From Manis javanica (lineage: Eukaryota; Chordata; Mammalia; Pholidota; Manidae), in the NCBI RefSeq assembly GCF_040802235.1, contig NC_133158.1:164397401-164461400 (forward strand): a stretch of 64,000 nucleotides of DNA, read 5' to 3'. Below are positions 10,699 to 56,221 of the stretch, piece by piece. The position numbers and the translations under genes are program-made. The notes under the pieces are model-generated. The model had not been told where the DNA came from, ran no database searches, and saw only the letters and a program-made list of their open reading frames with translations. The first letter of the stretch is position 1. Each line of letters starts with the position of its first letter.

Positions 10699-11080
10699 GG
10701 GGGATTACTCCTTGATAGGATAAAACTTGGTAAATCAAAGATCAATGCATGCTTTAAATATCCTTAATGTTGATCACTTAAAGGGTGTCAGATGATCACC
10801 TATGGAGGTACTCTTTTCTGATAATATTCCTTTCTCTTAATAAAAAAAAAAAAAGCAGTTACTGTGTGCTGACCTCCAATGAGTTCTGCACAGTGGTATA
10901 GAGGGCATGTCAAAGTGTGGGCAAAGGGTCTGTTTGTTTCTATGCTGAAGATCAAGGCCTAGCTTGGATACCCAGAAAATGAACCAAGATACGATATGAG
11001 GAGGAGCTTCCGGCATCAGCACTCTCTGGAGGACTTGTGCCGGGGGATGATCATCAAAAAGCCTCCACAGGGATCCGGAT

Positions 11081-12510: not shown

Positions 12511-12526
12511 AAAAAAAAGAAAAAAT

Positions 12527-12540
12527 AATGATAATCCTGG
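12527..12540. repeat. Target-site duplication, right copy
   Basis: aatgataatcctgg, identical to 4028-4041, directly follows the terminal A-rich tail of the composite element. Confidence 0.93.
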
Positions 12541-14005: not shown

Positions 14006-14231
14006 TATTTTATTGTTTTTATTTCCAGAAATGAAGATGGTGGGGGGTTTTTTTCTTTTAACCTCCAAAAGCGAGTAAGTTCTAAATATTTTGAAGACAA
14101 GAATTTCCAAAAGCAGTAAAGCAATCCTGATGAATTAAATATAATCACTGTTGAAAACATAAATATAAACTCACATAGAAAAAAAGATATATTCAATTGC
14201 ATTGAAAAAGGACATGATATTGGTTGAGAAG

Positions 14232-14667
14232 TGTGGATAAAATGAGAGTTCCTGTGGCCAGGATTCTCACCTGGCCCTGGTTGACTAGCTCACTGTACAC
14301 CTGTGGGCAATACATGGCTGTTGACTCTATATAAAGAGCTCTGCCCAGTGCTCTAGGTGTAACATGGTGGCAGGGCTGCAAGGCTACAGGAGAGCAGAGC
14401 AGAGGCTAGAGTGGTGGCAGCACTGAGGACAGAGGCCCAGAGGATGGCTGTGCGGGACAACTGTGCAAACAGACGGGCTCAGAGGCAGAGACCAGCTTGC
14501 TGCATGCAGACTCGCTCTGAGTGAACGGGATTTTAGTGACTGACCTGCTATCTGGAAATAAAGTTAGGTATAACCCTTTCACCCCAAGAATGTTTTGCTG
14601 TCAATTTCTTTGGTCACATTGAATCCATAGCGAACTTGCCCCAGGGCTGAAACTCATTGGCAAGACA
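14232..14667 (+). mobile_element. Solo LTR (long subtype)
   Basis: Runs from tgtggataaaatg to ggcaagaca, 436 bp, in the same orientation as the provirus at 16391-22650. It contains a TATA-like tatataaagagctc and an aataaag. The 4-bp word gaag flanks both sides (14228-14231 and 14668-14671). It carries a central block absent from the proviral LTRs but present in the nested LTR at 603-1109. Confidence 0.85.
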
Positions 14668-15443: not shown

Positions 15444-15771
15444 TGCCTTGCCAATGGGTTTCAGCCCCGGGCAAGTTCACTATGGATTTAGTGAGACAGA
15501 GGAATGACAATGAAACGTTCTTGCAGTGAAAGGGTTTATCACCCAGCTTGTTCTCCCAGCGATAGGTCGAGCACTGGAATTACAGTCTGCAGGTATGTAA
15601 TCCTCTTTCGTCCCTGCCTCCACCCAAAGCGCTGGGCAGAGCTCTGACGCAGTCAGTAATAACTGATTGCCTACAGGTGTGGAGGCAGTAGCCTAGCAGC
15701 AGGCCAGTTACATCATCAAGTAGTTTAGGTTCAGGTGGATTCTGGCCATAGGAACTTTCACTTTATCCACA
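15444..15771 (-). mobile_element. Solo LTR (short subtype)
   Basis: On the minus strand this 328-bp element matches the proviral LTR: it starts ccttgccaatgggtttcag on the plus strand and ends ctttatccaca. The gagctct and caataactgattgcc blocks are present. No internal sequence accompanies it. Confidence 0.85.
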
Positions 15772-15774
15772 GAG

Positions 15775-15955
15775 AGTTTTAATATCTTGCCTAAATTCAG
15801 CTTTCTTAAGGAGTTATAAATTATAGAAATGGGATTCACATCCATGTAATCTGGCTCCAAAATTCATGCTCTAATCTGCTACCATATCAAAAAAGAAAAA
15901 AACTAAATAAAAAAATAAAAATGAGAAAAAAAATCTGCTACTGGAGTCCAGTAGT
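15775..15955 (+). repeat. MIR 3' part, carrying a 49-bp A-rich insertion
   Basis: The words 'gggattcacatccatgtaatctggctcc' and 'atgctctaatctgctacc' fit the 3' end of MIR. It is interrupted at 15883-15931 by almost pure A with a short catatc start. aatctgctac is repeated on both sides (15873-15882 and 15932-15941), a classic target duplication. Confidence 0.7.
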
Positions 15956-16137: not shown

Positions 16138-16390
16138 ATGCATTTGAGAAGGGAACAAACTGTACCTGTGGACATCTTCTCTCTCTAGTCCTCTGTCTAA
16201 TCAGGAAGAGATTATTGATTCTGAACAGATATTGCTCAATTTCTAATGCAAACTGTTAAGAGCCTAGTGGATTTGGGTAAACTAAAGTATTTTTAAGTAT
16301 TTTCTCTCCCTACTGTTTAATCCTACCAAGTATTTTTTTTCTTCTTTGTGGTGATAACAAGGTCAGTTCTAGATTATAGCACTTACCCAC

Positions 16391-16743
16391 TGTGGGGTAA
16401 ATGGAAGTTCCTATGGCTAGTATCCTCACCTGACTCTAAACTACTCGATGATGGAATTGGCCTACTGCTAGGTTACTGCTTCCACACCCATAGGCAATAA
16501 ACTATTATTGACTGAGTCACTATATAAAGAGCTCTCTGCCCAGTGCTCTGGGCGGAGGCAGAGATGAAGGAGAATTACAGACCTGCAGACTACTGGATGC
16601 AGATGTAATTCTAGTGCTCGACCTCTCGACGGGTGAACAGGCCAGGTAATAAACTCTTTCACCCCAAGAACGTTGCATTGTCATTCCTTGGCTCACTGAA
16701 TCCATGGAGAACTTGCATCGGGGTGAAACCCACTGGCAAGACA
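16391..16743 (+). repeat. 5' LTR of the provirus
   Basis: Starts tgtggggtaaatgg and ends ggcaagaca. It contains a TATA-like ctatataaagagctc (about 16522) and an aataaa (about 16648). It aligns with the 3' LTR along its length, with scattered substitutions and small gaps, indicating an old insertion. Confidence 0.88.
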
Positions 16744-16745
16744 AT

Positions 16746-16765
16746 TAGCGACACTGGCAGGATTC
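16746..16765 (+). promoter_or_regulatory. Putative primer-binding site (tRNA-Leu-like)
   Basis: Two bases after the 5' LTR, the 20-mer tagcgacactggcaggattc matches the complement of the tRNA-Leu 3' end at about 13 of 20 positions, with most mismatches being transitions. Leucine priming is typical of ERV-L. The match is weak and was made from memory of the tRNA. Confidence 0.45.
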
Positions 16766-21600: not shown

Positions 21601-22328
21601 TGGACATTTTGACACATAGACCAAAGATGGCTGGCCCTCCTGGTACCTTGGGGGCAAGGCCTGGAAGCTGACCTCATGTGTATTCCTGGAGTAACAGAGT
21701 GGCCCCCAAAGATTGCAGTAGTATATTCTGAACAGCCTGAAGGTAGGAGCATCTAACCAGGGAGTTTTATCATTATGGTCAGTGCATGCACCTCCAGTAG
21801 CACTATATATAGACCCCTCAGTAACCCCCATAAGGAGAAGGGTAAAGGTATTGTATTAGACCTGGATGGGACCCCCTTCCTGCTACAGTCCTATCACAGG
21901 ACCACTCTCTTGCATGCATACTACCCGATGGACAAGATTTGCCTATGTTGGTGTCATTAAAACATGTGTCTTATCGCCCTTAAAGTCTTTGTGGATTGAG
22001 CACACACCCTAGCAAAAAAACTGCCACTCACTGGGGTGCATTGCAGCTCCCTATCCATACCACTACTAAATGTGAGTTAATGACTCACCTGAGTAGAACT
22101 GGTTTTGAATACAGCTGAAATGACCTTCTCAGGCTTGAGGATTATTATAATTTTTGTTACCTGTACCAAAATCTTGTTGTATCTTAACTTTTGTTATTAT
22201 CTCTATGTTGTTATCCTCTATTGCTGTTGTGGAATCGGGTTACAAATGCTACAGCTTTCTCACACTGGCACCATTGTGGGAGATTGAGAGCATTTAGATT
22301 CTGAGGCAAGAGTCATGGAGGGGTGAAC
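21601..22328 (+). other. Proviral 3' non-coding region, no env
   Basis: No envelope motif (SU/TM cleavage site, fusion peptide, CX6CC) was seen. A purine-rich stretch, gtcatggaggggtga near 22311-22325, precedes the 3' LTR and may be the polypurine tract. A hydrophobic short frame at 22105-22287 is probably chance. Confidence 0.5.
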
Positions 22329-22650
22329 TGTGGATCAAGTGAAGGTTCCTATGGCCAAGATCCTCACCTGACTCTAAATTACTTGATCATGTAACTAGCC
22401 TGCTGCCAGGCTACTGCTTCCACACTGGTAGGCAATGAGCCTATATAAAGAGCTCTGCCCAGTACTCTGGGCAGAGGCAGAGACAAAGGAGGATTACAGA
22501 CTTGCAGACTGTAATTCTAGTGTTTGACCTATTGCCAGGAAAACAAGCTGGGTAATAAGCCCTTTCACCCCCAAAACTTTCCATTGTCATTCCTTGATCT
22601 CACTGAATCCATAGTGAACTTGCCCGGGGCTGAAACCCATTGGCAAGACA
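22329..22650 (+). repeat. 3' LTR of the provirus
   Basis: Starts tgtggatcaag and ends ggcaagaca. It shares with the 5' LTR the tatataaagagctctgccc region, ggtaataagccctttcacccc and the terminal block. About 30 bp shorter than the 5' LTR because of small gaps. Confidence 0.88.
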
Positions 22651-22870
22651 CCAAGTTTCTGACAGTCACATTAATGTTTCTATCAGATCACAGAATCTCA
22701 AATTTGCCATGAATCCAGCATATTTATATAAATATTTTCCTCCTAGAATTAAAAAAAAATATATTGAGAACTCCCAGGATGAGTTGCTCAGAAAACTTCT
22801 GCAGCTCACTGCTGCAGACTTGGAAATTCCCCATTGTTCAGACATGCATGATGTAAACTTCTCTGAGATC
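22651..22870 (+). repeat. Ancient repeat, copy 1 of an inverted pair
   Basis: Starting exactly after the 3' LTR, 'ccaagtttctgacagtcac', 'cacagaatctcaaatttgcca' and later blocks match the reverse complement of 24240-24455. The family was not identified. Confidence 0.7.
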
Positions 22871-26860: not shown

Positions 26861-27738
26861 ATGAACAGGCAGAGGAATTTGATCCAAACAAAACTACAAG
26901 ACAGAACCCCAGAAAGAGGGCTAAATGAAATGGATATCACTAATTTTCTTGATAATGATTCCAAAATAAAAGTCATAAACATGCTCGCAGATTTACAGAA
27001 GAGTGTTCAAGATCTCAGGGAGGACTTCAACAAAGAGACAGAAAACCTGAAAAAGAGTCACTCAGAGCAGAAGAATATAGTATCTGAAATGAAATACACA
27101 ATAGAGGGATTTAAAGGCAGATTATATCATGTAGAGGAGATAGTAAATGAAATACAAATTGGAGAACAGGAAAACACAGAAGCTGAGGAACAGAGAAAAA
27201 AGGATTTCTAGGTATGAAAAAATAATAAGAGAGCTATGCACCCAACCCAAGTGAAACAATATTTGCATAATAGGGGTACCAGTAGGAGAAGAGAAAGACA
27301 AAGGGATAGAAAGTCTCTTTGATGAAATTATTGTTGAAAACTTCCCCAATCTGGGGAAGGAAATAGACACTCAAGTCATGGAAGTGCAGAGATCCTTTAA
27401 AAAAAGGAACCCTAGGAAGATGGCACTAAGACATATAATAATTAAAATGCCAAAGATCAAAGGTGAGGAGAGAGTGTTGAAAGCAGCATGAGAGAGAGAA
27501 AAGATTACATATAAAGGAAATCCCATTAAGCTATCAGCAGACTTCTCAACAGAAACTCTACAGGCCAGAAGGGAGTGGCATGATATATTTAATGTACTAA
27601 AACAGAAGGACCTCCAACCAAGAACCCTCTGCCCAACAAGATTATCGTTGAAATTTGAAGTAGGAATTAAACAATTTTCAAATAAATAAAAGTTGAAGGA
27701 ATTTGTCACTACTAAGCCAGTCTTACAAGATATATGAA
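26861..27738 (+). pseudogene. L1 ORF1 remnant
   Basis: A coiled-coil N-terminal part is open for 116 codons, then a stop at 27209-27211 and frameshifts break the RRM and C-terminal domains (TLQARREWHD and TRLSLKFE-type blocks near 27560-27660). Diverged from ORF1 of the full-length elements. Confidence 0.82.
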
Positions 27739-28214
27739 AGGGATTGCTGTAGCTAGAAATGACCCTAAAGCTAAATAGCTGTCACCAGTGAAAATAAACC
27801 CATAGTAAAGGTATAGACCAAATAATTACCATGCAAGTACAAAATTTAAAAAAACAAAAGAAGTAAAATCAATTATACACAAAAGCAGTCAAGGGATACA
27901 CAAAAAGTACAGATTATGACATCTAATATGAAAAAAGTGGTAGAGGAAGAAGAAAAAAGTACCTTTAGATTGTGTTTGAAATAGAATATTCATCAATTTA
28001 AGATAGACTATTATATAGTAAAGAAACTGTCCTTGAACCTTTGATAATCACAAAACTAAAGCCTACAATAAGTACACATACACACAAATAAATAAATTTT
28101 AAAAAGAGAGAAATCCAATTATAACACTAAAGAAAACCATCAATAACAAGAGAAGAGTATAACAGAGGAAGAAAAGTACAGATAGGAGATATAAAAAACA
28201 GCCAGAAAACAATA

Positions 28215-29955
28215 AAATGGCAATAGGTACATATCTATCAATAATCACCTTAAATGTAAATGTACTGAATGCACCAACCAAAAGACACAGAATGGCAGAA
28301 TGGATAAGAAACCAAGACCCACTTGATAATGGAGGGAATCTAGTAACCAAAATGTTGCTCATGTAACTGTATATTAATGATACCAAAATAAAAAAAAAGA
28401 CCCAACTATATGCTTCCTACAAGAGACTCATTTCAGACCCAAAGACATATACAGACTATAAGTGAAGGGATGGAAAAAAATATTTCATGCAAATAATGAG
28501 AAAAAAGCAGGAGTAACAGTACTTAGATCAGAAAAAAATAGATTTCAAAACAAAGAAAATAACAAGGACAAAGAAGGACATTATATAATGAAAAGGGATC
28601 AGTCCAACATGAGGATATAACCATTATAAATACCTATGCACCCAACACAGGAGCACCTACATATGTGAAACAAATACTGACAGAATTAAAGGAGGAAATA
28701 GATTGCAGCACATTCATTTTAGAGACTTTAACATACCACTCACATTAACAGATCAACCAGACAGAAAATAAATAAGGAAACAGAGCCACTGAACAATACA
28801 TTAGATCAAATGGACTTAACAGATATCTATAGAACACCCCATCCAAAAGCAGCAAGATACACATTTTTCTCAAGTGTACATGGAACATTCTCCAGAATAG
28901 ATCACATGCTAAGCCACAAGAACAGCCTCACTAAATCAAAAAGACTGAAATTGTATCAGGCAGCTTCTCAGGCCACAATGGCATGAAATTAGAAATAAAT
29001 TACACGAAGAAAATAAAAAGACTTACAAACACAAGGAGGTTAAACAACATGGTTCTAAATAATCAAGGGATCAATGAGCAAATTAAAATAGAAATTAAGT
29101 AATAGATGGAGACAAATGAAAACAAAAACACAACAGCCTAAAATCAGTGGAATATGGTAAAGGCAGTTCTAATCGGAAAGTACATAACAATGCAGGCTTA
29201 CGTCAGAAAAACAAGAACAATCCCAAATAAACAGTCTAAAATCACAATTAAAGAAACTAGAAAAAGAACAAGTGAAACCCAAAGTCAGTAGAAGGAGGGA
29301 CATATAAATAAAATAGAGCAGAAATAAATAAAATAGAGAAGAACAAAACAATAGAAAAAATCAATGAAACCATGAGCTGGTTCTTTGAGAAAATAAACAA
29401 AATAGATAAATACCTAGCCAGAATTACCAAGAAAAAAAGAGAGAGTACACACATAAACAGAATCAGAAATGAAGAGGGAATAATCACATGGATACTGCAG
29501 AAATACAAAAACTATTAATAGTATGAAAAATTATATGACAATAAATTGGACAACTTCCTAGAAAAATACAACCTTCCAATACTGACCCAGGAAGAAACAG
29601 AAAATCTGAACAGACCAATTAGCAGCAATGAAATTGAACTGGTAATCAAAAAACTCCAGGTTCATATGGCTTCACATCTGAATTCTATCAAGCATTTAAG
29701 AAGAGCTAATACCCATCCTTAAAGTATTGCAAAATGTAGAAGAGGAGGAAATACTTCCAAACTCATTCTATGAGGCCAGCATCACTCTAATACCAAAAGC
29801 AGACAAAGACACTACAAAAAAAGAAAATTACAAACCAATATCCATGATGAACATAGATGCAAAAATCCTCAATAAAATATTAGCAGACTGAATCCAAAAA
29901 TACATAAAAAAGATTATCCATCATGACCAAGTGGGATTTATTCCAGGATTGGAAG
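28215..29955 (+). pseudogene. L1 ORF2 remnant, 3'-truncated
   Basis: Endonuclease (from about 28217) and N-terminal reverse transcriptase blocks are recognisable in shifting frames, with a 75-bp L1 tail insertion at 28322-28396. Sequence ends before the FADD motif. Confidence 0.8.
28322..28396 (+). mobile_element. Very short LINE-1 3' end inserted within an L1
   Basis: 75 bp of L1 3' UTR end ('gttgctcatgtaactgtatattaatgatacc' region) plus an A-run are inserted in ORF2. The target word aagaccca is duplicated at 28314-28321 and 28397-28404. Confidence 0.85.
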
Positions 29956-34237: not shown

Positions 34238-34892
34238 AAAAATTTTTCTTATTTATTTTTTATTTTGGTATCATTAATATAAAATTACATGAACAACACT
34301 GTAGTTACTAGATTCCCCCCATTATCAAGACCCCACCACATACCCCACTACAGTCACTGTCCATCAGTATAGTAAGATGCTATAGAGTCACTACTTGTCT
34401 TCTCTGTTATACTGCCTTCTCCATGTCACCCCCCTCCATTATGTGTGCTAATTGTAATGCCCCTTTTTCCCCCTTATCATTCCCTTCCAACCCACCCTCC
34501 CCAGTCCCTTTCCCTTTGCTAACTGTTAGTCCATTCTTGGGTTCTGTGAGTCTGCTGCTGTTTAGTTCCTTCAGTTTCTGCTTTGTTCCTATGTTCCACA
34601 GATGAGTGAAATCATTTGGTACTTGTCTTTCTCTGCCTGGCTTATTTCACTGACCATAATATCCTCTAGCTCCATCCACGTTGTTGCAAATGGTAGGATT
34701 TGTTTTCTTCTTATGGCTGAATAATATTCCATTGTGTATATGTACCACATCTTCTTTATCCATTAATTAACTGATGGACACTTAGGTTGTTTCCATTTCT
34801 TGGCTATTGTAAATAGTGCTGTGATAAACATAGGGGTGCATATGTCTTTTTGAAACTGGGCTCCTGCATTCTTAAGGTAAATTCCTAGGAGT

Positions 34893-37800
34893 GTAATAGC
34901 ATAACAAGTGAGTTAAGTTAAACAGTAAAGAAGCTACCCTTGAACCTTTAGTAACCACGAATCCAAAGCCTGCAATAGCAATACGTACATATCTATCGAA
35001 AATCACCCTAAATGTAAATGGACTGAATGCAACAGTCAAAGGAACAGAGTAACAGAATGGATAAAAAGCAAGACCCATCTATATGCTGCCTACAAGAGAC
35101 TCACCTCAAACCCAAAGACATACACAGACTAAAAGTAAAGGGATGGAAAAATATATTTCATGCAAACAATAGGGAGAAAAAACCAGGTGTTTCAGTACTT
35201 GTCTCAAACAAAACAGACTTCAAAACAAAGAAAGTAAGAGGAGATAAAGAAGGACATTATATAATGATAAAGGGGTCAGTCCAACAAGATGACATAACCA
35301 TTATAAATATCTATGCACTCAACACCTACATATATGAAACAAATACTAACAGAATTAAAGGAGGAAATAGAATGCAATGCATTCATTTTAGGAGACTTCA
35401 ACACACCATTCACTCCAAAGGACAGACCAACCATACAGAAAATAAGTAAGGACACAGAGGCACTGAATATCACACTAGAACAGATGGATCTAACAGACAT
35501 CTACAGAACTCTACACCCAAAAGCAGCAGGATACACAATCTTCACAAGTGTACATGGAAGACTTTCCAGAATAGACCACATACTAGGCCACAAAAAGAGC
35601 CTCAGTAAAGTCAAAAAGATTGAAATTCTACCAACCAACTTCTCAGATCACAAAGGTATAAAACTAGAAATAAATTGTACAAAGAAAACAAAAAGCCTCA
35701 GAAATACATGGAGGCTTAACAACATGCTCCTAAATAATCGATGGATCAATGACCAAATTAAAACAAAGATGAAGCAATATATGGAGACAAATGATAACAA
35801 CAACACAATGCCCCACTTTCAATGGGATGCAGCAAAGGCAGTTCTAAGAGGAAAGTATATAGCAATCCAAGCCTATTTAAAGAAGGAAGAACAATCCCAA
35901 ATAAATATTCTAAAGTCACCATTATTGAAACTGAAAAAAGAAGAACATCTGAGGCCCAAAGTCAGCACAAGATCAGAGAAGAAATAAATAAAATTGAGAA
36001 GAATAAAACAATAGAAAAAATTAGTGAAACCAGGAGCTGGTTCTTTGAGAAAATAAACAAAATAGATAAACTCTTAGCCAGACGTATTAAGAGAAAAATG
36101 GAATCTACACACATAAACAGAATCAGAAATGAGAAAGGAAAAATCATGACAGTCACCACAGAAATACAAGGAATTATGAGAGAATACTATGAAAATCTAT
36201 ACACTAACAAACTGGATAACCTAGAAGAAATGGAAAACTTTCTAGAAAAATGGAACTTTCCAAGACTGAACAAGAAAGAAACAGAAAATCTAAACAGACC
36301 AATAACCAGCAACGAAATTGAATCAGTAAGCAAAAAACTACCCATGAATAAAACGCCCAGGCCAGATGGATTCACAACCGAATTTTATCAGACATTTAGA
36401 GAAGACATACTACCTGTTCTCCTTAAAGTTTTCCAAAAAATAGAAGAGGAGGGAATACTCCCAAACTCATTCAATGAATCCAGCATCACTCTAATACCCA
36501 AACCAGGCAAAGACACCATTAAAAAAGAAAACTACAGACCAATATCCCTGATGAACATTGATGCAAAATTACTCAACAAAATATTAGCAAACCTAATTCA
36601 AAAATACATTTAAAAGATCATCCATCATGATCAAGTGGGATTCATCCCAGGGATGCAAGGATGGTACAACATTAGAAACTTCATCAACATCATCCACCAC
36701 ATCAATAAAAAGGACAAAAACCACATGATCACTTCCATAGATGTGGAAAAGCAGTCAACAAAATTCAACATCCATTCATGACAAAAACTCTCAACAAAAT
36801 GGGTATAGAGGGCAAGTACCTCAACATAATAAAGGCCATATATATAAACCCATAGCCAACATCATACTTAACAACAAGAAGCTGAAAGCTTTTCCTTTAA
36901 GATTGGGAACAAGACAAAGATGCCCACTCTCCCCACTTTTATTCAACATAGTCCTGGAGGTCCTAGCCACAGCAATCAGACAACACAAAGAAATAAAAGG
37001 CATCCAGATTGGTAAGAAAGAAGTCAAACTGTCCCTGTTTGCAGATTACATGATATCATACATAAAAAACCCTAAAGAATCCACTCCAAAAAACATAGAC
37101 AAAAATCTCTTGGACATAAATATGAGCAACTTCTTCATGAACATATCTCCCTGGGCAAGGGAAACAAAAGCAAAAATGAACAAGTGGGACTATATCAAAC
37201 TAAAAAGTTTCTTTACAGCAAAGGACACCATCAGTAGGACAAAAAATCATCCTACAGTATGGGAGAATATATTCATAAATGACATATCAGATAAGGGGTT
37301 GACATCCAAATTATATAAAGAGCTCACACACCTCAACAAACAAAAAGCAAATAAGCCAATTAAAAAATGGGCAGAGGAGCTGAACGGACACTTCTCCAAA
37401 GAAGAAATTAAGATAGCCAACAGGCACATGAAAAGATGCTCCACATTGCTAATCATCAGAGAAATGCAAATTAAAATCACAATGAGGTATCACCTCACAT
37501 CAGTTAGGATGGCCAACATCTAAAAGACAAACAACAACAAATGTTGGCGAGGTTGTGGAGAAAGGGGAACCCTCCTACACTGCTGGTGGGAATGTAAATT
37601 AGTTCAACCATTGTGGAAAGCAGTATGGAGGTTCCTCAAAAAACTAAAAATAGAAATACCATTTGACCCAGGAATTCCACTCCTAGTAATTTACCTTAAT
37701 AATGCAGGAGCCTAGTTTGAAAAAGACATATGCACTCCTATGCTTATCGCAGCACTATTTAAATAGCCAAGAAATGGAACCTAAGTGTCCATCAGTAGAT

Positions 37801-38311
37801 GAATGGATATAGAAGATGTGGTACATATACACAATGGAATATTACTCAGTCATAAGAAGAAAACAAATTCTACCATTTGAAACACCACGGATGGAGCTAG
37901 AGGGTATTATGCTCAGTGAGACAAGCCAGGCAGAGAAAGACAAGTACCAAATGATTTCACTCATCTGTGGAGCATAAGAACAAAGCAAAAAACTGAAGGA
38001 ACAAAATAGCAGCAGACTCACAGAACCCAAGAATGGACTAACAGTTACTAAAGGTAAAGGGTGGGGGGAGGATGTGTGGGAAGGAAGGGATAAGGGGGAA
38101 AAAGGTGCATTACAATTAGCACACATAATGGAGGGGGGTGACATGGGGAAGGCAGAATAGCACAGAAAAGACAAGTGGTGATTCTATAGCATTTTACTAC
38201 ACTGATGGACAGTGACTGTAATGGGGTATGTGGTGGGGACTTTATGATGGGGGGAGTCTAATAACCCATATGTTGCTCATGTAATTGTATATTAATGGTA
38301 CCAAAAGAAAA
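34893..38311 (+). mobile_element. LINE-1 (inner), 5'-truncated with a large internal deletion
   Basis: Starts just upstream of ORF2 and runs to a 3' end 'gtatattaatggtacc' plus A-tract. The flanking words tcctaggagtg (left) and ccctacgagttg (right) are its diverged target duplication in the outer L1. ORF2 jumps from the post-FADD region (about 37090) directly to the [12 protein letters not shown] region, so roughly 300 codons are missing. Confidence 0.9.
34965..37980 (+). pseudogene. L1 ORF2 remnant, frameshifted and internally deleted
   Basis: Endonuclease (35027-35700), linker and early RT (35740-36613), RT core (36741-37080) and C-terminal pieces (37100-37523 and the CWRGCGER-type knuckle at 37543) are open in different frames. 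The active-site motif reads FADYM instead of FADDM at about 37038, an inactivating change. Confidence 0.9.
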
Positions 38312-39190
38312 AAATCCCTACGAGTTGAATTCCTGGGTCAAATGGTATTTGTATTTTGAGTTTTCAAGGAACCTCCATACTTCTTTCCACAATGGTTGAA
38401 CTAGTTTACATTCCCACCAGCAGTGTAGGAGGGTTCCCCTTTCTCCACATCCTTGCCAACATTTTTTGTGTCTTTTGGATGGTGGCCATCCTAACTGGTG
38501 TGAGGTGATATCTCATTGTGGTTTAAATTTGGATTTCCCTGATAATTAGTGATGTGGAGCATCTTTTCATGTGCCTGTTGGCCATCTGAATTTCTTCTTT
38601 GGAGAATTGCCTGTTCATATCCTCTGCCCATTTTTTAATGGGATTATTTGCTTTTTGGGTGTTAAGGCATGTGAGTTCTTTATATATTTTGAATGTTAAC
38701 CTCTTGTTGGATATGTTATTCACAAATATATTCTCCTATACTGTATGATGCCTTTTTATTCTGCTGATAGTGTCCTTTGCTGTACAGAAACTTTTTAGCA
38801 TGATGTAGTCCCATTTATTCATTTTTGATTTTGTTTCCCTTGCCCAAGGAGATGCATTCAGGAAAAAGTTGCTCATGTTTACATTCAAGAGATTGTTGCC
38901 TATGTTTTCTTCTAAGAGTTTTATGGTTTCATGACTTACATTCAGGCCTTTGATCCATTTTGAGTTTACATTTGTGTATGGGTTTAGACTATAATCCAGT
39001 TTCATTCTCTTACATGTAGCTGTCCAGTTTTGCCAACACCAGCTGTTGAAGAGGCTGTCATTTCCCCATTGTATATCCATGGCTCCTTTATTGTACATTA
39101 ATTGACCATATATGCTTGGGTTAATAGCTGGACACTCTCTATTCTGTTCCACTGGTCTATGGTTCTGTTCTTGTGGATAGACATCCATTT

Positions 39191-44325: not shown

Positions 44326-46440
44326 CCAGCCAGAGACATCACAAGAAAGCTACAGAAAATATCTCTAGTAAACATGGATGCAAAAATACTTAAAATATTG
44401 GCAAACCACATCCAACATAGAAAGGATTATATACCATGAGTGGGGTTTATCCCAGAATGCAACATCAGACCAACATCTTGAAAATCAAATATCATATACC
44501 ATCCTAATTAAAGGACACAAGCCATGTGATCATCTCAATAGATGCAGGAAAAGCATTTGATAAAATCTAATACCCATTCATGACAAAAACCCTCAACAAA
44601 CTCAGAATTGAATGAAAATGCATCAACTTGGAAAAGGTCATTGATGCAAAACCCATAGTTTAACATATTTAATAGTAAAGGACTGAAGGTTTTCATCCCC
44701 AAGATTGAGAAAAAGGCAAGGATGTGTCACTTCTGCACAACAATGTACTGGAGGTTCTAGCCACTGCAGTAAGGCAGAACAAAATAAAGGCATCTAGATC
44801 ACAAAGGGAAAGAAAAACTGACACACACACATGAAATAAAAAAATAATAAAAACTAGTAAATGAGTTTAGCAAGGTCACAGGATACAAGATCAATACACA
44901 AAAAAAATCAGTGGTACTTCTGTATACTAGCACCAAAAAAACCCTCTGAAAATAAAATTAAGCAATTCCATCCAGAAGAGCATAAAAAATAAAAATACGT
45001 AGGAACATTTTTTTAAAAGTGTAAGACTTTGTCTCTCCAGAGGGTTTCAGCCCCAGGCAAGTTCACTCTGGATTTGGTGAGACCAAATAATGTACAATGG
45101 AACATTGCAGGCAAAAAGGTTTATACCAAGCTTTATTCTCACGGTGGCAGGTCAAGTGCTAGAATCATGTCTGCATCCAGCAAGTCTGCGATCCGTCTCC
45201 ATCTCTGGCCTCTGGTGGGGAGCAACTGGGCAGAGTTTTTGATACAGCAACGCAGTCAATAGCTCACTGCCAACACATATGAAAGCCTACACCTGCGAGT
45301 ACTGCACGTGTACAGTGGGGAAGTAGGTTAGGGTCAGGTGAGGATCCTGGCCATGGGACTTGTATACTGAAAATGACAAAATATTGCTGAAAGAAATCAA
45401 GGAAGAGCTGAACAAATGACAAACATTCTATGTTCATGGATTGGAAGACTTTACATTGTCAGGATGGCAATTTTCTTCAAACTGATCTAGAAATTGGACA
45501 CAGTAGCCATTAAAACATTAGAATGTTTTTATGTAGAAACTGACAAGCTGACCATAAATGTTATATGGGAATGCAAAGTTTCTAAAATAGTCAAAAGAAT
45601 TTTGAAAAACAACAAAGGTCATAGACTTACATCATCTAATTTTAAGACTTACTTTTAAGCTGGAGAAATCAATGCCATATGATCAGTGTGGTACTGGCTC
45701 ATGGCCAGATATATAAGATCAATGGAACATAACTGAGAGTCTAAAAATAAATTTATGGTCAACTAATTTCAACAAAGGTAGCAAAGCAATTTACTGGAAG
45801 AAGAGAGTCTTTACAACAAATGTACTGAGACAAATGGATATCCATGCACAAAATGATTTTTAAATATTACTAAAAATAGATCAATACATCTATATATGAG
45901 CTCAAACTATAAAACTGGAATAATTTCTTTAGGACATTGAATTAGGCAAAAAGTTCTTAAAATATGACACCAAAAATATAATCTGTAAAGGAAATAATTC
46001 ATAAACCAAACTTCATTAAAATTAAAAACTTCTATAATTCAAGACACCATTATGAAAATGAAAAGACAAGCTACAGACTGCTTGCAAATCATATCTCTCT
46101 TAAAGGATTTATATCCAGAATGTGTAAAGAATTCTTACAACTCATTAATTAATAAGACAATGTGACCTGGTTGAAAAATGGGCAAGATTTGAATAGATAT
46201 TTCACTAAATACATACAAATGACTGAAAAAGCACATGAAAAGATGCTCAAAATCTTTAGAGAAATGCAAATTAAAACCACATTGAGATGCCATTAGAATG
46301 GCTATAATCAAAGAGACAATTCCAAGAGTTGGAAAGAATGTGGAGAAACTTGAACCCTCATACATTGCTGGTGGGAATGTAAAATGGCACAGACATTTTG
46401 GAAAAGCTTGTCAGTTTCTTAAAAAGTTAAACATACCAGG
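44326..46440 (+). mobile_element. Ancient LINE-1, right portion, interrupted by a solo LTR
   Basis: From 'aacatggatgcaaaaatact' through 'gatgcaggaaaagcatttga', 'gtcacaggatacaagatcaa' and 'catacattgctggtggg', this follows L1 ORF2 to near its C-terminus, with heavy decay. A solo LTR sits at 45030-45357. Confidence 0.82.
45030..45357 (-). mobile_element. Solo LTR within the ancient L1
   Basis: The minus-strand match includes 'gggtttcagccccaggcaagttcactctggat', 'cagtcaatagctcactgcc' and 'caggtgaggatcctggccat'. The 4-bp word actt occurs on both sides (45026-45029 and 45358-45361), and the L1 reading kdlytend-type sequence resumes correctly after it. Confidence 0.85.
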
Positions 46441-47659: not shown

Positions 47660-47672
47660 TCCAGTGACTTTT
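47660..47672. repeat. Target-site duplication, 3' side of the minus composite
   Basis: tccagtgactttt here, adjoining the poly(T) (reverse of the poly(A) tail), is repeated at 56209-56221 directly beyond the L1 5' end. Confidence 0.9.
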
Positions 47673-47706
47673 TTTTTTTCCTTTTTTTTTTTTTTTTTTT
47701 TTTTTT

Positions 47707-48029
47707 GAGAGGGCATCTCTCATATTTATTGATCAAATGGTTGTTAACAACAATAAAATTCAGTATAGGGGGGTCAATGCTCAATGTACAATCATTAATC
47801 CATCTCAAGCCTAATTCTCGTCAGTCTCCAATCTTCTGAAGCATAACGAACAAGTTCTTACATGGTGAACGAATTCTTACAGAGTGAATAAATTCTTACA
47901 TGGTGAACAGTACAAGGGCATTCATCACAGAAACTTTCGGTTTTGATCATGCAATATGACCTATAAACCATCAGGTCAAATATGAATATTCATTTGATTT
48001 TTGTACTTGATTTATATGTTGATCCCACA
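47707..48029 (-). mobile_element. Retroviral LTR remnant at the end of the composite
   Basis: Reverse-complement counterpart of 12187-12510. It starts tgtgggatc at 48029, keeps the repeated catgtaagaa-type motif, and ends 3' of an AATAAA at the poly(A) tail. Confidence 0.82.
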
Positions 48030-48662
48030 TTTCTCCTATTATTATTATTATTTTTATTTTTAATAAAATGCTGAAGTGGTAGGTAGATGCAAGATAAAGG
48101 TAGAAAACATAGTTTAGTGCTGTAAGAAGGCAAATGTAGATGATCAGATGATCAGGTGTGTGCCTATGGACTAAGTATTAATCCAGGCTAGACAAGGGCA
48201 GCAAGGCATCCACGGATGCAGAAGATTTCTCTCAAAGCAGGGGGGGTGAGGTTCTGAGCCTCACCTCTGTTGATCCCCAAATTCTCCCCTGATGGCCCCC
48301 CTGCGACTGTGCCTGTCTTAGGTTGTTCCTCCCTTGAGGAATCTTACCCGTCTCTGGCTAACCAGTCATCTTCCGGGGCCATACAGGGAAATGTAAAGTT
48401 GGTAAGTGAGAGAGAAGCCATATTGTTTGCAAAGGTTAGCTTTTTACTTCTTTGCAGATTTATGCCCTGTGGTTTCTATGCCCAGCACTTGTCTCGAGGT
48501 ATCTTTACCACCTGGAGGAATTATGATACTCGGTAAATTCGATATGAGGCATGAATTCTATTTAAGGTTTGTAATTAGGAAGGAAGAAGAAAAGCTATAG
48601 ATGTAGCATATGAAGGAAACTTGGGAGGATTGATTATTTCTTTGACATATCTTCTTGTATAG

Positions 48663-49150
48663 TACCTTAAGTATGTATAGGTTTTAAACTACTAATTTGC
48701 ACACACATATTAACATAATAGGAATACGGTGACATAAACAAAGCAAATCTATAATTACCAGCCATCTCCAGTGAAGCCAAGAAAACCATTTAGGCACCCT
48801 AGGCATTTGTGAAAATTTATCTATGATATGATGGATATTTTCCAACTGTACTTGAACCATCAGACAAATTAAAGCAGCCCATTTCTGGGATCTGTTCACA
48901 TCCCATATGTTCTTTTAACCATAGATAGTCTATAGTCATGAGATTTTGGGGTGCTACAACTTGCACCCCTCCCAACTCCTGATTGAGTTCCAACAGTACA
49001 GATCCAGTCAAATTCGTTGTCTCACTGTATGCACATGCCAGCCTAGACATCTCCCTCCTCCTTCTTATGGCAAGTCCAGGAGACGGTGGGCTGGATGCAG
49101 CCACAACCGCAGCATCGTCCGGATCCCTGTGGAGGCTTTTTGATGATCAT
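48663..49150 (-). pseudogene. Retroviral env TM fragment (second copy)
   Basis: Counterpart of 11081-11545. The N-terminal part (48817-49104) and the membrane-spanning part (48684-48899) are open in different frames because of a frameshift near 48850. The paired cysteines and tryptophan-rich membrane-proximal part are retained. Confidence 0.75.
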
Positions 49151-49503
49151 CCCCCGGCACGAGTCCTCCAGAGAGTGCTGATGCCGGAAGCTCCTCCTCA
49201 TATCGTATCTTAGTTCATTTTCTGGGTATCCAAGCTAGGCCTTGATCTTCTGCGTAGAAACAAACAGACCCTTTGCCCACACTTTGACATGCCCTCTATA
49301 CCACTGTGCAGAACTCATTGGAGGTCAGCACACAGTAACTGCTTTTTTTTTTTTTTTAATTAAGAGAAAGGAATATTATCAGAAAAGAGTACCTCCATAG
49401 CTGATCATCTGACACCCTTTAAGTGATCAACATTAAGGATATTTAAAGCATGCGTTGATCTTTGATTTACCAATAGTTTTATCCTGTTAAAGAGTAATCC
49501 CCC

Positions 49504-49873
49504 TTTTCTTTCTTTCTTTCTTTTTTTTTTTAAATTTTTAATCTACACTTACCTGAAGAATACTATGTTTACTATGCTCTCCCCTATATCAGGTCCCCCC
49601 TAACAACCACATTACGGTTACTGTCCATCAGCTTAGCAAAATGTGGTAGAGTCACTACTTGTCCTCTCTGTGTTGTGCAGCCCACCCTCCCCTTTCTCCC
49701 TCCCCCCCATGCATGCTAATCTTAATACCCCCCTTCTTCTTCCCCCCCCTTATCCCTCCCTGCCCACCCATCCTCTCCAGTTCCTTTCCCTTTGGTACCT
49801 GTTAGTCCATTTTTGGGTTCTGTAATTCTGCTGCTGTTTTGTTCCTTCAGTTTTTCCTTTGTTCCTATACTCC
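49504..49873 (-). other. L1 3' UTR with internal A-rich tail
   Basis: Counterpart of 10333-10698, with G-rich tract (C-rich on the plus strand, about 49680-49770) and terminal aaattttta/A-run/(aaag)n at 49504-49538. Confidence 0.8.
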
Positions 49874-52800
49874 TCAGATGAGTGAAATCATTTGGTATTT
49901 CTCTTTCTCCGCTTGGCTTATTTCACTGAGCATAATACTCTCCAGCTCCATCCATGTTGCTGCAAATGGTTGGATTTTTCCACTTCTTATGGCTGAGTAG
50001 TATTCCATTGTGTATATGTACCACATCTTCTTTATCCATTCATCTACAGATGGACATTTAGGTTGCTTCCAATTCTTGGCTATTGTAAATAGTGCTGCGA
50101 TAAACATAGGGGTGCATCTGTCTTTCTCAAACTTGATTGCTGCGTTCTTAGGGTAAATTCCTAGGAGTGGAATTCCTGGGTCAAATGGTAGGTCTGTTTT
50201 GAGCATTTTGATGCACCTCCATACTGCTTTCCACAATGGTTGAACTAATTTACATTCCCACCAGCAGTGTAGGAGGGTTCCCCTTTCTCCACAGCCTCGC
50301 CAACATTTGTTGTTGTTTGTCTTTTGGATGGCAGCTATCCTTACTGGTGTGAAGTGATACCTCATTGTAGTTTTAATTTGCATTTCTCTGATAATTAGCG
50401 ATGTGGAGCATCTTTTCATGTGTCTCTTGGCCATCTGTATTTCTTTTTTGGAGAACTGTCTGTTCAGTTCCTCTGCCCATTTTTTAATTGGGTTATTTGT
50501 TTTTTGTTTGTTGAGGCGTGTGAGCTCTTTATATATTCTGGACGTCAAGCCTTTATCAGATCTGTCATTTTCAAATATATTCTCCCATACTGTAGGGTTC
50601 CTTTTTGTTCTATTGATGGTGTCTTTCGCTGTACAGAAGCTTTTCAGCTTAATGTAGTCCCACTTGCTCATTTTTGCTGTTGTTTTCCTTGCCCGGGGAG
50701 ATATGTTCAAGAAGAGATCACTCATGTTTATGTCTAAGAGGTTTTTGCCTATGTTTTTTTCCAAGAGTTTAATGGTTTCGTGACTTACATTCAGGTCTTT
50801 GATCCATTTTGAGTTTACCTTTGTATATGGGGTTAGACAATGGTCCAGTTTCATTCTCCTACATGTAGCTGTCCAGTTTTGCCAGCACCATCTGTTGAAG
50901 AGACTGTCATTTTGCCATTGTATGTCCATGGCTCCTTTATCAAATATTAATTGACCATATATGTTTGGGTTAATTTCTGGGGTCTCTAATCTGTTCCACT
51001 GGTCTGTGGCTCTGTTCTTGTGCCAGTACCAAATTGTCTTGATTACTATGGCTTTGTAGTAGAGCTTAAAGTTGGGGAGTGAGATCCCCCCTACTTTATT
51101 CTTCTTTTTCAGGATTGCTTTGGCTATTCGGGGTCTTTGGTGTTTCCATATGAATTTTTGAATTATTTCTTCCAGTTTGTTGAAGAATGTTGCTGGTAAT
51201 TTGAGAGGGATTGCATCAAATTTGTATATTGCTTTCGGCAGGATGGCCATTTTGACGATATTAATTCTTCCTAGCCATGAGCATGGGATGAGTTTCCATT
51301 TATTAGTGTCCCCTTTAATTTCTCTTAAGAGTGACTTGTAGTTTTCAGAGTATAAGTCTTTCACTTCCTTGGTTAGGTTTATTCCTAGGTATTTTATTCT
51401 TTTTGATGCAATGGTGAATGGAATTGTTTTCCTGATTTCTCTTTCTATTGATTCGTTGTTAGTGTATAGGAAAGCTACAGATTTCTGTGTGTTGATTTTG
51501 TATCCTGCAACTTTGCTGTATTCCGATATCAGTTCTAGTAGTTTTGGAGTGGAGTCTTTAGGGTTTTTTATGTACAGTATCATATCATCTGCAAATAGTG
51601 ACAGTTTAACTTCTTCTTTACCAATCTGGATTCCTTGTATTTGTTTGTTTTGTCTGATTGCCGTGGCTAGGACCTCCAGTACTATGTTAAATAACAGTGG
51701 GGAGAGTGGGCATCCCTGTCTGGTTCCCGATCTCAGTGGAAATGCTTTCAGCTTCTCGCTGTTCAGTATAATGCTGGCTGTGGGTTTATCATATATGGCC
51801 TTTATTATGTTGAGGTACTTGCCCTCTATTCCCATTTTGCTGAGAGTTTTTATCATGAATGGATGTTGAATTTTGTCAAATGCTTTTTCAGCATCTATGG
51901 AGATGATCATGTGGTTTTTGTCTTTCTTTTTGTTGATGTGGTGGATGATGTTGATGGATTTTCGAATGTTGTACCATCCTTGCATCCCTGGGATGAACCC
52001 CACTTGGTCATGGTGTATGATCCTTTTGATATACTGTTGAATTCTGTTTGCTAATATTTTATTGAGTATTTTTGCATCTACATTCATCAGGGATATTGGT
52101 CTGTAATTTTCTTTTTTGGTGGGGTCTTTTCCTGGTTTTGGTATTAGGGTGATGTTGGCTTCATAGAATGAGTTTGGGAGTATTCCCTCTTCTTCTATTT
52201 TGTGGAACACTTTAAGGAGAATGGGTATTATGTCTTCTCTGTGTGTCTGATAAAATTCCAAGGTAAATCCGTCCGGCCCCGGGGTTTTGTTCTTGGGTAG
52301 TTTTTTGATTACTGTTTCAATTTCTTTGCTTGTAATTGGTTTGTTTAACTTTTGTGTTTCTTCCTTGGTCAGTCTTGGGAGGTTGTATTTTTCTAGGAAG
52401 TTGTCCATTTCTTCTAGGTTTTCCAGCTTGTTGGCATATAGGTTTTCATAGTAGTCTTTAATAATTCTTTGTATTTCTGTGGAGTCTGTCGTGATTTTTC
52501 CATTCTCATTTCTGATTATGTTGATTTGTGTTGACTCTCTTTTTCTCTTAATAAGTTGGGCTAGAGGCTTATCTATTTTGTTTATTTTCTCAAGGAACCA
52601 GCTCTTGGTTTCGTTGATTTTTGCTATTGTTTTATTCTTCTCAATTTTGTTTATTTCTTCTCTGATCTTTATTATGTCCCTCCTTCTGCTGACTTTAGGC
52701 CTCATTTGTTCTTCTTTTTCCAGTTTTAATAATTGTGATGTTAGACTATTCATTTGGGATTGTTCTTCCTTCTTCAAGTGTGCCTGGATTGCTATATACT

Positions 52801-53689
52801 TTCCTCTTAAGACTGCTTTCGCTGCATCCCACAGAAGTTGGGGAGTAGTGTTGTTGTTGTCATTTGTTTCTATATATTCCTTGATCTCTATTTTGATTTG
52901 TTCATTGATCCATTGATTATTTAGTAGCATGTTGTTAAGCCTCCATGTGTTTGTGAGCCTTTTTGTTTTCTTTGTAGAATTTATTTCTACTTTCATACCT
53001 TTGTGGTCTGAAAAATTGGTTGGTAGAATTTCAATATTGTGGAATTTACTGAGGCTCTTTTTGTGAGCTAGTATGTGGTCTATTCTGGAGAATGTTCCAT
53101 GTGCACTTGAGAAGAATGTATATCCTGTTGCTTTTGGATGTAAAGTTCTATAGATGTCTATTAGGTCCATCTGTTCTAGTGTGTTGTTCAGTGCCTGTGT
53201 GTCTTTACTTATTTTCTGCCCGGTGGATCTATCCTTTGGGGTGAGTGGTGTGTTGAAGTCTCCTACAATGAATGCATTGCAGTCTATTTCCCTCTTTAGT
53301 TCTGTTAGTATTTGCTTCACATATGCTGGTGCTCCTGTATTGGGTGCATATATATTTAGAATGGTTATATCCTCTTGTTGGACTGAGCCCTTTATCATTA
53401 TGTAGTGGCCTTCTTTATCTCTTGTTACTTTCTTTGTTTTGAAGTCTATTTTGTCTGATATTAGTACTGCAACCCCTGCTTTCTTCTCACTGTTGTTTGC
53501 CTGAAATATGTTTTTCCATCCCTTGACTTTTAGTCTATGCTTATCTTTGGGTTTAAGGTGAGTTTCTTGTAAGCAGCATATAGATGGGTCTTGCTTTTTT
53601 ATCGATTCTATTACTCTATGTCTTTTGATTGGCGCATTAAGTCCATTTACATTTAGGGTGACTATTGAAAGATATGTACTTATTGCCAT
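49874..53689 (-). CDS. L1 ORF2p, endonuclease and reverse transcriptase (intact)
   Basis: 1271 codons from the ATG at 53687-53689; an in-frame TTG lies 27 bases upstream but the ATG is preferred. ORF2p nicks target DNA and reverse-transcribes L1 RNA there. The endonuclease (residues 1-240) has LNVNGLNAP with Asn13, CLQETH with Glu42, GDFNTPL and SDHKG. The reverse transcriptase has [11 protein letters not shown] and the FADD active site at about residues 699-702 (51584-51595). The C-terminus has the Cys/His-rich [14 protein letters not shown] segment. The length matches the usual ~1275 aa and no stop or frameshift was found. Expression is not shown by sequence. Confidence 0.95.
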
Positions 53690-53884
53690 TGCAGGCTTTA
53701 GATTCGTGGTTACCAAAGGTTCAAGGTTAGCTTCTTTAGTATCTTACTGCCTAACTTAGCTCGCTTATTGAGCTGTTATATACACTGTCTGGAGATTCTT
53801 TTCTTCTCTCCCTTCTTATTCCTCCTCCTCCATTCTTCATATGTTGTGTGTTTTGTTCTGTGCTCTTTTTAGGGGTGCTCCCAT

Positions 53885-54775
53885 CTAGAGCAGTCCCTGT
53901 AGGATGCCCTGTAGAGGTGGTTTGTGGGAAGCAAATTCCCTCAGCTTTTGCTTGTCTGGGAATTGTTTAATCCCAGCATCATATTTAAATGATAGTCGTG
54001 CTGGATACAGTATCCTTGGTTCAAGGCCCTTCTGTTTCATTGCATTAAGTGTATCATGCCATTCTCTTCTGGCCTGTAGGGTTTCTGTTGAGAAGTCTGA
54101 TGTTAGCCTGATTGGTTTTCCTTTATAGGTGACCTTTTTCTCTCTAGCTGCCTTTAAAACTCTTTCCTTGTCCTTGATCCTTGCCATTTTAATTACTATG
54201 TGTCTTGGTGTTGTCCTCCTTGGATCCTTTCTGTTGGGGGTTCTGTATAATTCCATGGTCTGTTCGATTATTTCCTCCCCCAGTTTGGGGAAGTTTTCAG
54301 CAATTATTTCTTCAAAGACCCTTTCTATCCCTTTTCCTCTTTCTTCCTCTTCTGGTATCCCTATAATACGAATGTTTTTCCTTTTGTATTGGTCACATAT
54401 TTCTCTTAGTGTTGTTTCATTCCTGGAGATCCTTTTATCTCTCTCTATGTCAGCTTCTATACGTTCCTGTTCTCTGGCTTCTATTCCTTCAATGGCCTCT
54501 TGCATCTTATCCATTCTGCTTATAAATCCTTCCAGGGATTGTTTCACTTCTGTGATCTCTTTCCTGACATCTGTGATCTCCTTCCGGACTTCATCCCACT
54601 GCTCTTGCATTTTTCTCTGCATCTCATCCCATTGCTCTTGCATTTTTTTCTGCATCTCTGTCAGCATGTTCATGATTTTTATTTTGAATTCTTTTTCAGG
54701 AGGACTAGTTAGGTCTGTCTCCTTCTCAGGTGTTGTCTCTGTGATCTTTGTCTGCCTGTAGTTTTGCCTTTTCAT
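53885..54775 (-). CDS. L1 ORF1p, RNA-binding nucleic-acid chaperone (intact)
   Basis: 296 codons from ATG 54773-54775, 195 bp upstream of the ORF2 ATG. ORF1p trimers coat L1 RNA. A coiled coil (about residues 25-110) includes a duplicated KMQEQWDEMQ-type 11-mer and a duplicated VRKEIT unit. An RRM-like core (about 130-220) carries the IIGIPEEEERGKG stretch, and the C-terminal domain includes ARREWHD and LYPARLSF. Somewhat shorter than human ORF1p (338 aa), mainly in the N-terminal part. Confidence 0.94.
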   Translation of the reverse strand: MKRQNYRQTKITETTPEKETDLTSPPEKEFKIKIMNMLTEMQKKMQEQWDEMQRKMQEQWDEVRKEITDVRKEITEVKQSLEGFISRMDKMQEAIEGIEAREQERIEADIERDKRISRNETTLREICDQYKRKNIRIIGIPEEEERGKGIERVFEEIIAENFPKLGEEIIEQTMELYRTPNRKDPRRTTPRHIVIKMARIKDKERVLKAAREKKVTYKGKPIRLTSDFSTETLQARREWHDTLNAMKQKGLEPRILYPARLSFKYDAGIKQFPDKQKLREFASHKPPLQGILQGLL

Positions 54776-56208
54776 GGTGATAGAGATAGTTTGCAGAGCT
54801 GGTACAAGTGACCGCTGGAAGAGCTTCCCTTCTTGTTGGTTTGTAGCCTTTTCCTGGGAGAATAGCGACCTCTAGTGGCTTGTGCTGGGCAGCTGTGCGC
54901 AGACAGGGCTTCTGCTTCCTGCCCAGTTGCTTTGGGGTTTATCTCCGCTGTTGCTGTGGGCGTGGCCTGGCTGGGGCTGTTCCTCCAAAATGGTGGAGCC
55001 CCGTTGGAGGGGGAGCAGCCAGGAGACTATTTATCTCCGTAAGGGGCCTCTGTGCTCCCTGCTGCCCAGGGGGTTAGAGTGCCCAGAGATCCCCAGATTC
55101 CCTGCCTCTGGTCTAAGTGACCTGTCCTGCCCCTTTAAGATTTCCAAAAAGCACTCTCCAAACCAAAACAACAACAGCAACAATGAGAGAGGGAACAGAA
55201 AGAAAGAGAAAAAAAAAAAAGGAAAAAAAAGGAAAAAACAAGCGATTTTTTTTTTTTTTTTTTTTTTTTTGTCCTCAGTTGCCGGTCCCAGGCACCCGCT
55301 CACTGGTCCTGCTGCCCTGTCTCCCTAGCACCAGGGTCCCTGTCCTTTCAAGGCTTCCAAAAAGCACCCACCCACCGGTCCCGCAGGGAAGGAACGCTCG
55401 ATATTCTTTGTCCTCAGGCACTGGTCCCAGGCACCCGCTCACCAGTCCCGCCGCCCTGCCTCCCTAGCACCGGGGTCCCTGTCCCTTTTAGGCTTCCAAA
55501 AAGCACTCGCAGAGAAGAGAAAAAAAAAAGGGGAAAAACGCGCGATTTCCTCTGTCCTCAAGTGCCGGTCTCAGGCACCCGACCACCGGTCCCGCAGGGA
55601 AAAACGGGGGATATTCTTTGTCCTCAGGCGCCGGTCCCAGCCACCCGCTCACCAGTCCCGCCACCGTGCCTCCCTAGCACTGGGGTCCCCGTCCCTTCAA
55701 GGCTTCCAAAAAGCGCTCGCCAAAAAGAGAAAAAAAAAAAAAAAAAAAAGGGGAAAAACGCGCGACCTCCTCCGTCCTCAGGCACCGGTCTCAGGCACCC
55801 GCCCCCCGGTCTCACAGGGAGAAACGCGGGATATTCTTTGTCCTCCGGCGCCGTTCCCAGGCACCTCCTCACCGGTCCCGCCACCCTGCCTCCCCAGCAA
55901 CGGGGGCCCGTCCCTCTAAGGCTTCCAAAAAGCGCTCGCCAAAAAAAAAAAAAACTGCTCCGGTTTCTCTCCACCCGCCGGGAGCCGGGGGGAGGGGCGC
56001 TCGGGTCCCGCCGGTCTGGGGCTTGTATCTTACCCCCTTCACAAGGCGCTGGGTTCTTGCAGGTGTGGATGTGGTCTGGATGTTGTCCTGTGTCCTGTGG
56101 TCTCTATTTTAGGAAGATTTTCTTTGTTATATTTTCATAGCTCTATGTGTTTTTGGGAGGAGATTTCCACTGCTCTACTCACGCCGCCATCCTGGCTCCG
56201 CCCCCCTC
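54776..56208 (-). promoter_or_regulatory. L1 5' UTR with tandem monomer-like repeats (intact copy)
   Basis: The unit whose reverse complement is ggcttccaaaaagcgctcgcc recurs ending near 55940, 55721 and 55511, about 219 and 210 bp apart, with partial units near 55370 and 55160. The extreme 5' end reads ggcggagccaggatggcggcgtgag (reverse of 56184-56208). Confidence 0.82.
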
Positions 56209-56221
56209 TCCAGTGACTTTT
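56209..56221. repeat. Target-site duplication, 5' side of the minus composite
   Basis: tccagtgactttt, identical to 47660-47672. Confidence 0.9.

Follow-up and report, generated by a model that had tools for sequence, protein, structure and literature searches.

An L1 element fused to a retroviral 3′ end occurs in many copies in the genome of the pangolin Manis javanica

In L1 3′ transduction, DNA from downstream of an L1 follows the poly(A) of the element and ends at a poly(A) signal of its own. Classical 3′ transduction families arise from a single fixed source L1, and a transduced tail is generally regarded as a marker of that source. Here we describe a stretch of 64,000 nucleotides from the pangolin Manis javanica (NCBI RefSeq assembly GCF_040802235.1, contig NC_133158.1, positions 164,397,401 to 164,461,400 of the forward strand; hereafter the window, to which coordinates refer unless stated otherwise), which contains two copies of an element composed of a full-length L1 joined at a single seam to a 1.8-kb tail of retroviral sequence. 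This element has the layout of an L1 3′ transduction but differs in that its tail is the 3′ end of a retrovirus, found after 3,996 out of 4,944 exact L1 ends, and is the usual 3′ end of the lineage. It occurs in many copies, ends at the polyadenylation site of a long terminal repeat (LTR) and its open reading frame (ORF) 2 is evolutionarily constrained.

Several described systems approach this arrangement. The 3′ end of SVA (SINE-R) derives from the endogenous retrovirus HERV-K and SVA is mobilized by L1 (PMC7353768), and the pangolin element shares with SVA a retrovirus-derived 3′ end and L1 mobilization. SVA is, however, non-autonomous and assembled from hexamer, Alu-like and variable number tandem repeat parts, whereas the pangolin element is a complete L1 that carries both ORFs: ORF1 and ORF2 are open in the second copy in the window, and the unit is explained by an L1 plus a retroviral tail, with tandem repeats of the L1 type in its 5′ untranslated region (UTR). 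In Manis pentadactyla, the provirus ERV-Gamma.b9-Mpen contains a nearly complete L1 between env and the 3′ LTR (PMC12584738). This L1 in a pangolin provirus, upstream of the 3′ LTR, is close to the founder layout proposed below, but that provirus is gamma-type and the available portion of the paper describes no mobilized fusion, whereas the tail studied here appears to be class II-like, with the seam in integrase. Fusions of L1 with foreign RNA are also the subject of a catalogue of L1 chimeras (PMC13174262), in which the partners are small RNAs, Alu and mRNAs, mostly attached on the 5′ side of L1, but the words “ERV,” “pangolin,” and “Manis” do not occur in its main text as available. An engineered L1-LTR chimera has been described in mouse (PMC6500023). 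No earlier report of this L1-retrovirus fusion was found among the open-access papers listed, as judged by titles and the beginnings of abstracts; the family may already be present in Dfam or Repbase under another name.

The two copies in the window lie on opposite strands. Unit 2 (47660-56221, minus strand) consists of a full-length L1, the seam, the 1.8-kb retroviral tail, a poly(A) and a 13-bp target duplication, while unit 1 (4028-12540, plus strand; tail at 10699-12510) arose by a separate insertion of this composite and is flanked by a target duplication of 14 bp. Both have the same order of parts, i.e., L1 5′UTR, ORF1, ORF2, L1 3′UTR, A-tract, a 1.8-kb env-LTR segment and poly(A), as the initial annotation of this DNA had noted for the minus-strand unit, and this is borne out by their alignment in a single block (4040-12528 on the plus strand with 56204-47688 on the minus strand; 95.2% over 8,549 columns). 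The target duplication of unit 2, AAAAGTCACTGGA (13 nt), occupies 56209-56221 at the 5′ end and 47660-47672 at the 3′ end of the element, and that of unit 1, AATGATAATCCTGG (14 nt), is found at 4028-4041 and 12527-12540. When the letters of the flanks were shuffled 2,000 times, the duplication of neither unit was reached, which confirms that unit 2 has a 13-bp target duplication of its own.

The hallmarks of L1 are all present in unit 2: an ORF1 with RNA-binding domain and dsRBD, an ORF2 with endonuclease and reverse transcriptase, a poly(A) and a target duplication. Its 5′UTR (54776-56208) starts with GAGGGGGGCGGAGCC and contains tandem repeats of ca. 220 bp (55364-55954); the repeats of the two units measure 212 and 220 bp. 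ORF1 (53885-54775) is open over 296 aa (Pfam Transposase_22, 9.4e-25; dsRBD, 3.7e-18) and is 95% identical to an L1 ORF1 of Manis javanica and 89% identical, over 88% of its length, to a protein of Manis pentadactyla. ORF2 (49874-53716; 1,280 aa as listed) is also open (RVT_1, 6.9e-47; Exo_endo_phos, 1.3e-22), and relative to it the ORF2 of unit 1 contains frameshifts. Between these two copies ORF2 is under purifying selection, with a ratio of replacing to silent substitution rates (dN/dS) of 0.42 with transition weighting (p = 3e-5) and of 0.29 by NG86 (0.19-0.44 in 200 bootstraps), while ORF1 does not depart significantly from neutrality (dN/dS 0.70, p = 0.23). Polarisation of the changes with older L1s assigned 14 silent and 22 replacing changes to unit 1 and 16 and 14, respectively, to unit 2, with 13 and 14 unassigned. 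Given the purifying selection on ORF2, decay alone does not account for the differences between the units, at least some of which arose while the lineage was propagating.

The L1 3′UTR of unit 2 (49537-49873), delimited by alignment to its counterpart in unit 1, is followed by the seam, a first A-tract at 49504-49536 (10670-10698 in unit 1), which we read as the poly(A) of the founding L1 abutting the proviral target site. Older L1s in the window (34244-39175 and 27086-29955) end at this same place and are without a tail; among them, 37088-38295 and 38312-39175 are neighboring parts in opposite orientation, as in twin priming or two insertions. A second A-tract lies within the tail (49343-49359; 10841-10854 in unit 1). 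The initial annotation had pointed out that the units share internal A-tracts, and both units indeed have both, but only the first is a retroposition seam because the second lies in sequence that is A-rich in the provirus as well. For that reason the second tract was rejected as the mark of an earlier transduction round.

The tail of unit 2 can be divided into four parts, the first of which is an integrase (pol) end (49147-49503). It is followed by the transmembrane subunit of env in a broken frame (48667-49146; 11051-11545 in unit 1), by an env-to-LTR sequence with a purine run at its end (48030-48666) and by LTR U3 and R without U5 (47706-48029), with AATAAA at 47725-47730; a poly(A) tail with an internal GG (47673-47705) completes the element. 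The transmembrane piece of unit 1 matches the transmembrane subunit of ASLV (E 7e-7) and has no relevant match in Pfam. A proviral relative on contig C11 (L068/L069) matches the tail over 10691-12510, in two aligned parts (74% and 79%); the counterpart of the first tail part corresponds to L069 1344-1707 (74%) and that of the third part aligns to L068. The start of this alignment at 10691 matches the position of the first A-tract. Open pieces of the relative contain RNase H (Pfam, 7e-13) and an integrase core (2.1e-7; 31.5 bits, just below the Pfam cut-off of 32.6), and the open piece that spans the seam (L069 1199-1624) has no Pfam match but resembles retroviral integrases in PDB (3jca, 2.6e-9; RSV, 7.7e-7). 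The closest match of the RNase H piece is 7sr6 “Polymerase” (2.2e-29). We take 3jca to be MMTV and 7sr6 to be HERV-K, and the donor of the tail would therefore be class II-like. The short integrase-side pieces of the tail itself gave nothing relevant in Pfam (one chance-level match) and nothing convincing in PDB, so that the integrase reading rests on the proviral relative and not on their own matches. By these comparisons, the tail derives from a class II-like endogenous retrovirus, of which it retains the end of integrase, the transmembrane part of env and U3-R of the LTR. The description of this segment as “env” in the initial annotation thus holds for the transmembrane subunit, although an integrase end is included as well and ca. 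900 nt of the env of the related provirus are missing.

The units are not proviruses themselves: instead of two LTRs with U5 and gag-pol-env between them, there is a single U3-R piece in which U5 is replaced by A's. Nothing indicates that the remnants of env and integrase have been retained as coding sequence. Twenty-six transmembrane-like proteins on short ENA contigs indicate that the transmembrane piece is multi-copy; at residues that distinguish the two units, agreement was 15/17 for P0001, 7/14 for P0007 and 5/10 for P0025, and below half for the others. Exact patterns of the tail and the L1 3′UTR had no matches in viral_contigs, and a protein-guided scan of that set gave five pattern matches, none of which was confirmed. 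Phage records contained no match to the tail. One tail pattern also had no match in genome_contigs, a set that may omit records of the window's own genome.

The position at which the tail ends is informative. The exact 24-base LTR end occurs 19,335 times genome-wide, and in 68 cases non-A letters occupy three required downstream positions. By reading, 54 of these run on into a common U5 and the remaining 14 are A-rich tails (23 and 7, respectively, among 30 LTR-end loci read). Seven pairs among the 54 share a strand and a spacing of 3.7-15.5 kb, as expected of the two LTRs of a provirus, and in four of these a match to a pol query lies in between. These are proviral LTRs with U5. The L1 copies carry their poly(A) exactly at the R/U5 border where the proviral LTRs enter U5 and, therefore, the end of the fused element coincides with the polyadenylation site of the LTR; as in 3′ transduction, a foreign segment follows the A-tail of the L1 and has its own poly(A) behind a poly(A) signal. 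The 25 bases preceding AATAAA (12461-12485), which lay outside the search pattern, show 94% similarity to unit 1 in 23 proviral LTRs, compared to 45-77% for stretches further upstream. This 25-base stretch contains the palindrome GTTGTTAACAAC. The LTR signal probably acts as a working 3′-processing signal that has been retained, and the lineage would then have permanently swapped its own transcript end for it. Closely spaced LTR ends were also encountered: L129 (G000:C1:2241650-2242700) and L130 (C1:6426250-6426850) contain three and two tandem LTR units, respectively, ca. 370-378 nt apart and each followed by an A-tract, perhaps through slippage between A-rich runs, and a third stretch (L131) has two ends 657 nt apart.

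The abundance of the composite was established by searching the genome (2,559,957,944 bases). With up to two mismatches, a pattern across the seam gave 13,695 matches (6,777 + 6,918) against 12 (7 + 5) for the reversed control, and the LTR end followed by A's gave 27,148 (13,565 + 13,583) against none (0 + 0). All 30 seam loci read, which are exact matches on contig C1 between 0.9 and 10.2 Mb, consist of an L1 3′UTR joined to the tail at the seam base. A count of L1 ends joined to the tail, as had been proposed in the initial annotation, gave 4,944 exact L1 3′UTR ends of this type, of which 3,996 (81%) have an exact tail start 8-38 nt further on; in the first 12.72 Mb of C1, which was checked by hand, 30 of 34 L1 ends were joined by one of three marks. 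As a control, the end of the older tail-less L1s has 2,703 exact matches genome-wide, and none of the nine in the same 12.72 Mb has an exact LTR end 1.5-2.3 kb downstream. A query restricted to the tail yielded eight loci including unit 1, seven of which cross the seam while one (L002) is truncated inside the tail; among its 1,709 first-look candidates, 39 other places were scored and found to be 97-98% identical. Since the seam counts include segmental duplicates, independent insertions are fewer than the matches. On G000:C1 near 1.8, 4.5 and 23.4 Mb, tailed L1s recur in clusters of matching spacing, partly near-identical, which points to large segmental duplications.

From the 30 seam loci, 22 sequences including both units remained after removal of six rearranged ones and of copies <1% apart. 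The distances among these copies in the L1 and in the tail are correlated (r = 0.835, reached in none of 2,000 permutations), showing that L1 and tail have traveled together. Mean divergence is 4.1% for the end of ORF2, 6.6% for the L1 3′UTR, 6.1% for the tail and 7.0% for its transmembrane env part, so that the tail evolves like DNA without constraint. For a 583-base piece of the tail of unit 2, 39 other places have 98-99% identity (40 of 551 candidates scored), and this points to recent activity. Ten further copies included three whose 5′ end was in the fetched stretch, and a significant target duplication was found in L034 (13 nt) and L035 (17 nt). The expectation that joined copies would have distinct target duplications is thus supported by two of these three but not by L033, where no significant duplication was detected. 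The full-length L034 (L080/L081, G000:C1 near 8.82-8.83 Mb) has apparently inserted in the LTR part of another tailed copy, and its target duplication consists of LTR letters. The fused element is in all likelihood a large and recently active L1 lineage, with unit 2 among its young copies. The suggestion that the composite is itself a propagating lineage is supported by the thousands of seam matches, the distinct target duplications and the selection on ORF2.

We consider it very probable, from the sequence comparisons, that this lineage began with an L1 inserted in a provirus, the read-through of which to the LTR signal gave a 3′ transduction that became a large L1 lineage. The proviral alignment and the TT|AAAA site would place the founding insertion in the integrase region of the provirus, with the L1 in sense orientation. 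Starting at the L1 promoter, transcription would then have passed the L1's own poly(A) and proceeded through the remainder of the provirus, and cleavage and polyadenylation of the transcript would have taken place where R meets U5 in the 3′ LTR, an end point that is seen at the ends of the copies. Target-primed reverse transcription by L1 may subsequently have copied this RNA elsewhere as a 3′ transduction, and from then on the fused RNA would have been the replicating form, with the L1 promoter and proteins at one end and the retroviral poly(A) signal at the other. TTAAAA is a cut site preferred by the L1 endonuclease. Among 190 first-look candidates, 40 proviruses were scored (L069 and 39 more), and in all of these the seam region is uninterrupted and in 27 TTAAAA is present at the seam; this fits an L1 insertion at that site, with the first A-tract as its own poly(A).

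A number of observations weigh against this scenario. TTAAAA is absent at the seam in 13 of the 40 proviruses, and reading 40 of the 190 candidates did not reveal the source locus, i.e., an L1 inside a provirus at the seam site. Resemblance between the tail and the proviruses read at the seam is only 73-82%, too low to assign a donor subfamily. The ca. 900 nt of env of L069 that are missing from the tail have no clean splice sites at their edges in that relative; splicing was considered as the cause of this gap. Furthermore, 948 of the 4,944 exact L1 ends are without an exact tail start and 4 of the 34 hand-checked ends are without any tail mark. Target duplications were significant in only two of the three full-length copies whose 5′ end was covered, and among truncated copies one stands out in only one out of five (L048, 15 nt); the other 23 loci of that set are proviral LTRs.

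Other origins have to be weighed against the insertion of an L1 with read-through. The same succession of L1, A-tract, retroviral 3′ end and poly(A) would result from template switching, in which the L1 enzyme starts on a retroviral mRNA and jumps to the poly(A) of an L1 RNA, after which the fusion propagates. The failure to find an L1-occupied provirus among the candidates read fits this explanation, but the TTAAAA at the seam in 27 of 40 proviruses is predicted by an insertion and not by a jump. Template switching is, therefore, less likely than L1 insertion with read-through and seems, on balance, unlikely. If, on the other hand, one fixed source L1 in a provirus had made all copies, which themselves never propagated, the pangolin family would work as classical 3′ transduction families do, and the near-neutral differences in ORF1 taken alone would agree with this. 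A static locus would, however, evolve neutrally, in conflict with the depletion of amino-acid changes in ORF2, and unrooted trees place the 22 copies in nested, successive subgroups, with weak to full support; a single fixed source is accordingly quite improbable.

That the pair in the window represents a segmental duplication of one insertion can be dismissed almost entirely. Near-identical tailed L1s with the same spacing, apparently segmental duplicates, do exist elsewhere in the genome, but the two units have unlike flanks, differing target duplications (13 vs. 14 nt) and opposite strands, and they diverge by ca. 5%. Comparison of 1.5 kb per side revealed no duplication of the flanks. The sole significant match between them (78% over 155 nt, inverted) lies 1.3 kb past the 3′ end of unit 1 and ca. 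0.5 kb past the 5′ end of unit 2, and on either side it belongs to an older L1 fragment. Flanks and target duplications thus refute this explanation for the pair and uphold the earlier view of unit 2 as an independent second copy. A segmental duplication had been envisaged in case only two copies with duplicated flanks existed; there are many copies, and the flanks of the pair are unduplicated.

Elsewhere in the window one repeat, 67-87% alike, is present at at least six places (391-838, 14218-14667, 15444-15777, 16371-16747, 22327-22651, and 45029-45358), and neither a tRNA (bacterial settings) nor an Rfam match at gathering score was detected anywhere in the window.

With respect to the biology of these elements, the transduced retroviral end seems to have become a permanent component of a highly successful autonomous L1. 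The element allows testing of wholesale replacement of an L1 3′ end, and of whether lineages gain an advantage from a stronger poly(A) signal. If this interpretation is true, each insertion also plants a piece of retroviral LTR in the genome, and many apparent LTR and env remnants in the pangolin genome would have arrived as the 3′ ends of L1s. Consequently, counts of endogenous retroviruses and LTRs in pangolins may be inflated.

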